A stretch of 64,000 nt of DNA from Gemmatimonadota bacterium (GTDB taxonomy: Bacteria; Gemmatimonadota; Gemmatimonadetes; Gemmatimonadales; GWC2-71-9): positions 1 to 64,000 of the forward strand of contig QHVB01000031.1 of assembly GCA_003222195.1 (NCBI GenBank), read 5' to 3'. The position numbers and the translations under genes were made by a program. The notes beneath the pieces are model-generated. The model did no database searches. It saw only the letters and a program-made list of their open reading frames with translations, and had not been told where the DNA came from. Shown piece after piece: positions 543 through 1,785 of this stretch. Position 1 is the first letter of the stretch; each line of letters starts with the position of its first letter.

Positions 543-554
543 TTTGCGCTGCCT

Positions 555-1697
555 TGTATCTCGATTCTTCCCTAGAGTGTGAGCAAGTTGGGACGGGCGA
601 TAGTCCGCGCTGCCTAGGGTCTTCGAGACCGTCCGTTAGCCGGGGCGTCGTCCGTTCCCAGCGCTCGTCTAGAATCCGCACAGTTGGCCGGGATCGCAAG
701 CCCGCATCGTGCAAGGTCGGATCGCGACGAGCTGGTGCCGAGGAGGCGCAATGACGACGAACCCGGTGGTCGTGGGTGTGGATGTCGCGAAGGACCGGTT
801 GGACGTGGCGGTGCGGCCGAGTGGCGAAACCTGGAGCGCGACGAACGACGAGGCCGGGATCACCGCGTTGGTGGCGCGGCTGCGCCCGCTCGGCCCGGCC
901 CTGCTGGTCTGTGAAGCGACGGGGGGCTTTGAACGAGCGGCGATCGCGGCGCTGGCCGCCGCGGGCCTGCCGGTGGTCGTCGCGAATCCGCGGCAGGTGC
1001 GAGACTTCGCCCGCGCGACGGGCCAACTGGCCAAGACGGATCAGCTCGATGCGGCGATCCTGGCGCTCTTCGCCGAGCGGGTGCGGCCCACGCCGCGGCC
1101 GCTGCCCGACGCGGCGGCGCAGCTGCTCGATGCCGTGCTCACCCGCCGGCGCCAGCTTCTCGAGATGCTCGTCGCGGAAAAGAATCGGTTGGGGTTTGCG
1201 CCCAAGCCGGTCCACCGCGGGATCCAGGCCCACATTCGCTGGCTCGAGCGGCAGCTCGACGACGTCACGAAAGAGCTCGCGGCGTTGATCGAGGCCAGCC
1301 CCGCGTGGCGCGCCAAGGACGACCTGCTGCAGAGCGTGCCGGGCGTGGGCCCGATCGTGAGCTACACGCTGCTCGGCGAGCTACCGGAGCTCGGCACACT
1401 CAGTCACAAACAAATCGCGGCGCTCGTCGGCGTCGCGCCGCTGGCCCGCGACAGTGGCACGCTCCGCGGGAAGCGCCTGGTCTGGGGGGGCCGCGCGAGC
1501 GTGCGCACGGCGCTGTTCATGGCCGCGCTGTGCGGCCGGCGCTGGAACCCCACCCTCAAGGTCTTTTACGAGCGGCTGAAAGCGGCGGGCAAACCCACGA
1601 AGGTGGCGCTCATCGCCTGCGCGCGGAAACTGCTGACGATCCTCAACGCGATGATGCGGGACCAGTCACGCTGGACGTCCAACGTTCAATACAGTTG
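555..1697 (+). mobile_element. IS110-family insertion sequence inserted in an attC core
   Basis: The element is 1143 bp, flanked by a CT dinucleotide at both ends (553-554 and 1698-1699). Removing it with one CT restores GCCTAACGGATCGCG, the attC end seen in neighbouring sites. There is no other target duplication and no terminal inverted repeat, as expected for IS110. The left end has about 196 non-coding bases with a predicted bridge RNA. The transposase runs to the very right end. A long left and absent right non-coding end fits the IS110 group rather than the IS1111 group, although the attC target recalls the known IS1111-attC elements. Confidence 0.9.
590..735 (+). ncRNA. Predicted IS110 bridge RNA
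   Basis: Two stem-loops with large internal loops can be drawn. Target loop: outer stem 590-596 with 652-659 and inner hairpin 618-622 with 626-630. Its left guide at 607-616 is identical to the restored target across the core (GCGCTGCCTA). Its right guide at 632-639 (TCCGTTAG) is the reverse complement of CTAACGGA on the other side of the core. Donor loop: outer stem 658-669 with 726-735 (two-base bulge) and inner hairpin 689-692 with 701-704. Its left guide at 680-686 (ACAGTTG) equals the right IS end at 1691-1697. Its right guide at 709-715 pairs with the left IS end CTTGTAT, two of the pairs being G-T wobbles. The fold was drawn by hand; expression is not shown. Confidence 0.85.
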
Positions 1698-1701
1698 CTA
1701 A
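751..1701 (+). CDS. IS110-family transposase (DEDD/serine recombinase)
   Basis: A 316-residue RNA-guided recombinase. The N-terminal RuvC-like domain shows the DEDD set: D11 in VGVDVAKD, E55 in LVCEATGG, and D97 and D100 in AKTDQLDAA. The C-terminal Transposase_20 domain contains PGVGPIVSY near 197 and the catalytic serine S235 in [14 protein letters not shown]. The ATG at 751 is chosen over an in-frame ATG at 709 because GAGGAGG lies just upstream and the earlier start falls inside the predicted bridge RNA. The last codon uses the C of the core CT, and the TAA stop (1699-1701) is made from the core T plus the target's AA. The open frame is intact, so the element may be active. Confidence 0.95.
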
Positions 1702-1785
1702 CGGATCGCGCTTAAGCTGCGGCGCGCTGAAGAAAGATTCATTCCTTAATCTACGCGCGCCGTCAGCTTCAAGCGCTTGTTAGGC
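1698..1785 (-). repeat. attC site split by the IS110 element
   Basis: The inner arms and the GTTAGGC end (1779-1785) are intact. On the other side only CTAACGG remains, preceded by the IS end instead of GC. The missing GC of the GCC lies at 551-552 on the far side of the insertion. This is the crossover core of the minus-strand attC, so the cassette behind it should no longer be excisable with this site. Confidence 0.9.

Follow-up and report, generated by a model that had tools for sequence, protein, structure and literature searches.

The IS1111-attC group of insertion sequences was reportedly treated by Tetu and Holmes (2008) and by Post and Hall (2009). Its members include ISKpn4, ISPst6, ISPa25 and ISPa21 (PMC11187229, PMC11616780), and both IS1111-attC elements and elements with bridge RNAs or seekRNAs are already known (PMC11208160, PMC11187229, PMC11616780). 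In IS1111 elements, the guide RNA lies downstream of the transposase and its guides stand in reverse order (PMC11187229, PMC11208160). Here, we describe an IS110-group element whose upstream bridge RNA very probably has its target loop set for the R' end of an attC site plus the first bases of the adjacent cassette, and its donor loop set for the element's own ends, as judged from the sequence. The original prediction regarded an IS110-group element with a long left end guided to attC as new; in agreement with this, no earlier report of such an upstream-RNA element was found in the literature searched, outside which most subscription papers lie.

Structure of the element and its transposase

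The DNA analysed (the window) comprises 64,000 nucleotides, namely positions 1-64,000 of the forward strand of contig QHVB01000031.1, from the assembly GCA_003222195.1 of a Gemmatimonadota bacterium. The insertion sequence that it carries has the following parts:

555-1697, plus strand: complete IS110-group insertion sequence of 1143 bp, with left end TGTATCTCG... and right end ...ATACAGTTG; ends homologous in 37 relatives
553-554, plus strand: core dinucleotide CT at the left junction, read from the sequence
1698-1699, plus strand: core dinucleotide CT at the right junction, read from the sequence
751-1701, plus strand: IS110 RNA-guided transposase gene, 316 aa, with DEDD and catalytic Ser motifs; stop codon TAA at 1699-1701

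The element had been predicted to span 546-1704; it does lie there, with exact ends at 555 and 1697, and the outer bases are flanks. The CT core predicted for both junctions was borne out by the sequence. A genome search found one copy of the element in its own genome.

The Pfam domains PF01548 (DEDD RuvC; 1.3e-23) and PF02371 (Transposase_20, with the catalytic serine; 6.4e-18) were detected in the transposase, which scored 219.6 bits against the NCBIfam model NF033542 (IS110 RNA-guided transposase; cut-off 140). IS621 was matched at E=4e-36, and in this alignment its catalytic residues correspond to the GVD, CEA, TDxxD and DSG motifs of the transposase; the alignments with IS621 and ISCro4, at about 1e-36, retain the DEDD and serine motifs. 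The predicted protein is accordingly assigned to the IS110 family of DEDD recombinases. The non-coding left end, 196 bp long, lies upstream of the transposase gene, and the right end holds nothing past the gene. The long left end was also found in relatives with TTGTA/CAGTTG ends.

Interrupted attC site in an integron cassette array

The element is located in an integron, with these surrounding features:

1-6360, minus strand: integron cassette array with eight intact attC sites besides the interrupted one
90-182, 2249-2338, 2749-2880, 3299-3388, 4106-4195, 4707-4796, 5113-5202 and 5802-5891, minus strand: intact attC sites, from attC detection in the window
551-554, minus strand: outer portion of the R' box of the interrupted attC (plus strand GCCT, minus strand AGGC)
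1698-1785, minus strand: remainder of the interrupted attC, with hairpin and R'' box (GTTAGGC on the plus strand at 1779-1785)
6416-7309, minus strand: remnants of an integron integrase gene in three frames, a pseudogene or assembly errors

The integrase remnant and the cassettes share one direction of transcription, and the 3' end of the remnant points toward the array. One cassette, flanked by two attC sites, contains a tRNA-like gene at 2576-2661 (minus strand), which ARAGORN calls as tRNA-Arg tcg and Rfam scores at 45.8 bits; more tRNA-like fragments adjoin it.

When the flanks of the element were joined, the sequence GCGCTGC-CT-AACGGATCGCGC was obtained. The restored site (90 nt) takes the fold of an attC, with 7/7 R-box pairs, and its inner hairpin is far more stable than mononucleotide shuffles (z=-8.2). 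The RYYYAAC...GTTRRRY boxes, the imperfect hairpin, extrahelical bases on one arm and an array beside an integrase were all found. The transposase gene sits among the cassette genes of the array and could be read as ordinary cassette cargo, the adjacent attC sites being normal cassette boundaries. The probability of this is almost negligible, because the element splits a single R' box that the joined flanks restore, and conserved forms of its ends recur in relatives that lie outside integrons.

A pattern search of the genome located about 35 close copies of attC. The full 15-nt target GCGCTGCCTAACGGA (GCGCTGC-CT-AACGGA) has four further perfect copies in the 3.5-Mb genome, all of them empty attC sites, and the pattern search of these 3.5 Mb found no perfect copy outside attC. 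Together with the fold of the restored site and the attC hairpins at relatives' sites, these copies uphold the predicted targeting of attC.

In attC sites, the arm with extrahelical bases is R''-L''. At the six foldable sites (those of the window, L003, L007, L039, L048 and L050), the unpaired extra bases are on the arm that points away from the element, and the element therefore occupies R' (GTTRRRY), the crossover box; this placement fits the cassette genes on the minus strand. The interrupted R' now reads GTTAGCA, so that GTTAG is left and the RRY part of GTTRRRY is destroyed. The original prediction held that the element can silence cassette excision; loss of excision after the insertion is plausible.

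Predicted bridge RNA and its guides

The following features were assigned to the left end:

587-733, plus strand: predicted bridge RNA, with a target stem-loop at about 587-662 and a donor stem-loop at about 663-733
607-616, plus strand: left target guide (LTG) GCGCTGCCTA, identical to the restored target, with comparative support
632-639, plus strand: right target guide (RTG) TCCGTTAG, with a variable part at 633-637 and core AG at 638-639
680-686, plus strand: left donor guide (LDG) ACAGTTG, identical to the right IS end at 1691-1697
709-715, plus strand: right donor guide (RDG) GTGCAAG, which pairs with CTTGTAT at the left end (two wobble pairs); supported by comparison at 711-715 only

The single-sequence fold of this region is not significant (z=-1.4), and therefore only the comparative fold carries weight. 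In the consensus fold of 14 sequences, the guides are placed in internal loops of two stem-loops, as the original prediction had drawn them. Two-sided changes were found at 7 of the 18 pairs, 95.2% of pairs were kept, and the covariation exceeded all 500 shuffles and was clearly above that of slid controls. No Rfam match to the bridge RNA was obtained at the gathering score, nor at E up to 1. The two-loop structure and its covariation identify the region as a predicted bridge RNA.

Sequence matches and family covariation located all four guides where they had been predicted, with the outer ends trimmed. The positions held, whereas the proposed RDG and RTG were one or two bases too long. The RTG at 632-639 is the reverse complement of CTAACGGA, and its effective length is 7 nt (core plus five), position 632 being T in 29 of 37 elements.

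The LTG lies 5' of the RTG, which is the IS110 order, at a spacing of about 25 nt in well-registered relatives. Membership of the known IS1111-attC group has to be weighed here, since the target class (one attC end) and the transposase superfamily are held in common (PMC11187229). Insertion at one attC end was indeed found, but the downstream RNA and reversed guides of IS1111 were not: the RNA region is upstream, within the 196-bp left end, none exists at the right end, the LTG precedes the RTG, and the TTGTA/CAGTTG relatives are arranged alike. Membership is thus extremely unlikely, and both RNA position and guide order support placement in the IS110 group on sequence grounds.

Covariation of guides with insertion sites

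Genome contigs and 395 genomes of the phylum were searched for relatives, and further searches covered the family and the order. The boundaries of the elements were placed from the homology of their left TTGTA and right CAGTTG termini, the guides playing no part in this, and the 37 elements with both ends known formed the covariation set.

A coordinate-free right-target score between each left end and its own right flank gave z=10.6 over the flanks of other elements (n=37). Specifically, RTG columns 633-637 matched the own right flank in 30, 33, 33, 34 and 36 of the 37 elements, compared with 10-13 for permuted flanks. The observed value was reached by none of 5000 flank permutations; such permutation values are not strict probabilities, as alignment members share ancestry. 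For the LTG, subfamilies differ by one base in register, which made the first column test look weak; once a one-base shift was allowed, for own and permuted flanks alike, z was 9.7-10.4. LTG positions 607-610 show no family-wide covariation in a fixed register, and they match in the window's element regardless.

Meanwhile, covariation with the right IS end was seen at LDG columns 682, 684 and 685, and the LDG tracks the variant right ends CAGTCG (L006), CGGATG (L043), CAGCTG (L053 and L058) and CGGTTG (L061). RDG positions 709-710 do not follow the left end, and the support is limited to GCAAG at 711-715 because the RDG is nearly constant, as is the left end.

In nine of the ten elements at CTAAC sites, the guide agrees with the target at the next two, variable bases, which is read as natural reprogramming within attC variants. 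The original prediction had raised the case of homologues with the same guides at unrelated sites; instead, changed guides were found at matching changed sites. By these comparisons, chance can be excluded as the source of the guide matches.

Relatives and their targets

The tree was built with ISEc21, ISEc32 and plasmid relatives as references and no IS1111 protein; mis-framed and long-branch rows were not used for claims. Elements L001-L005, L007, L030, L038, L039 and L044 form one clade (support 98), in which every member whose right flank can be read is inserted at CTAAC, in most cases in a clear attC. A second group, comprising L045, L046, L048 and L050, is shared with members at other targets. 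In this tree, the elements at CTAAC/attC sites fall into two Gemmatimonadota clades.

attC hairpins were found at the insertion sites of L003, L007, L039, L048 and L050. Additionally, a separate intact attC lies near the insertions of L003, L005, L039 and L048, compared with 0 of 15 control loci. The CTAAC-targeting elements L038, L045, L046 and L080 are at sites without clear attC structure. Owing to unconvincing hairpins, L045, L046, L062 and L080 were left out of the attC count.

The clear cases all lie at one same attC end and attC is strongly folded, so recognition of the folded hairpin, or of the integron integrase machinery, with the guide matches secondary, was also considered. This is very unlikely: relatives with the same two-loop RNA use unrelated targets that each match their own guides, L038 and L080 follow the CTAAC guide to sites without a clear attC, and the guide changes along with the seventh base of the target. 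Unrelated targets that fit their own guides were seen in Nitrospira and other relatives. Recognition through the guides is the reading that we retain.

L048 and L080, from one genome (G073), are 100% identical 1186-bp copies at two sites, both at GTCTAACGC, one of which is clearly attC and the other not. Their identity shows that movement was recent and that the ends are exact. A search of viral contigs gave no relatives.

In L007 (3794-4969) and L030 (3801-4592), the left core is AT, the right core is CT and the LTG reads CACAT, which suggests that a target core AT was joined to a donor core CT. L004 (2380-3327) has an internal deletion that removed the donor loop and the transposase start; its RTG, TTAGGTAG, is unlike those of its neighbours.

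Target-supplied stop codon and open frame in the predicted circle

In L001, L002, L003, L005, L007 and L038, the transposase frame within the element has no internal stop, and TAA is made up of the core T and target AA; L044 likewise takes its stop from the target. Most other relatives with a readable C-terminus carry the stop within the right end, often as a TGA that overlaps a TTGACA-like -35 box at -18. The window's clade has a right end without the TTGACA-like -35 box present in most relatives, and the junction promoter may therefore be weak or absent. In the IS870/IS427 group, the transposase stop codon is likewise completed by the target site; that group differs in its IS5-family DDE transposase, CTAG target and lack of a guide RNA.

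In the four closest elements that are complete (L001, L002, L003 and L005), abutting the ends as in a circle leaves the frame open through the bridge RNA for 66-67 codons, up to a TGA that overlaps the transposase ATG (ATGA). The other two circle frames are closed early, except one frame of L005. In the window, the open frame through the bridge RNA covers 554-754 (plus strand) and continues the transposase frame in the circle, as it does in L002, L003 and L005. It is not kept in L007 and L038, and may be inherited chance. That the window's clade is bound to attC by reading frame (the borrowed R' TAA) as well as by guide, and that a circle message translated through the guide RNA could regulate it, is a doubtful proposal.

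Proposed mechanism and implications

On the model of its homologues IS621 and ISEc21, the element would excise as a circle with its ends abutted. The recombinase and bridge RNA would then act together, the LTG and RTG pairing with the attC end and the LDG and RDG with the circle junction, and strands would be exchanged at the CT core with no target duplication. Related elements have shifted targets through guide change. For the window's copy, we infer transcription, circle formation and strand exchange by analogy.

RNA-guided attC targeting very probably extends beyond IS1111 to the IS110 group, here in a phylum whose bacteria carry chromosomal integrons. Guides aimed at the attC crossover box could freeze or reshape cassette arrays, and the target-supplied stop codon links coding sequence to guide choice. 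Moreover, the natural guide series, covering attC variants and unrelated sites, could be used to test guide rules.

Comparison with known systems

Like IS621 (PMC11208160, PDB 8WT6), the element combines a DEDD/Ser recombinase with an upstream bridge RNA, predicted here, in which the target loop precedes the donor loop, and it shares the CT core and the LTG/RTG/LDG/RDG layout. Unlike IS621, it targets attC R', has a longer RTG (core plus five), and has a right end so short that the target supplies the transposase stop codon. ISEc21, a seekRNA element (PMC11187229), resembles it in having its non-coding region upstream, in matching its target in the IS110 order and in making no target duplication, but targets IS3-family transposase genes and is distant from it in the tree. 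With the IS1111-attC group, it shares the character of an RNA-guided DEDD element at one attC end, whereas in that group the RNA lies downstream of the transposase and the guides are reversed.
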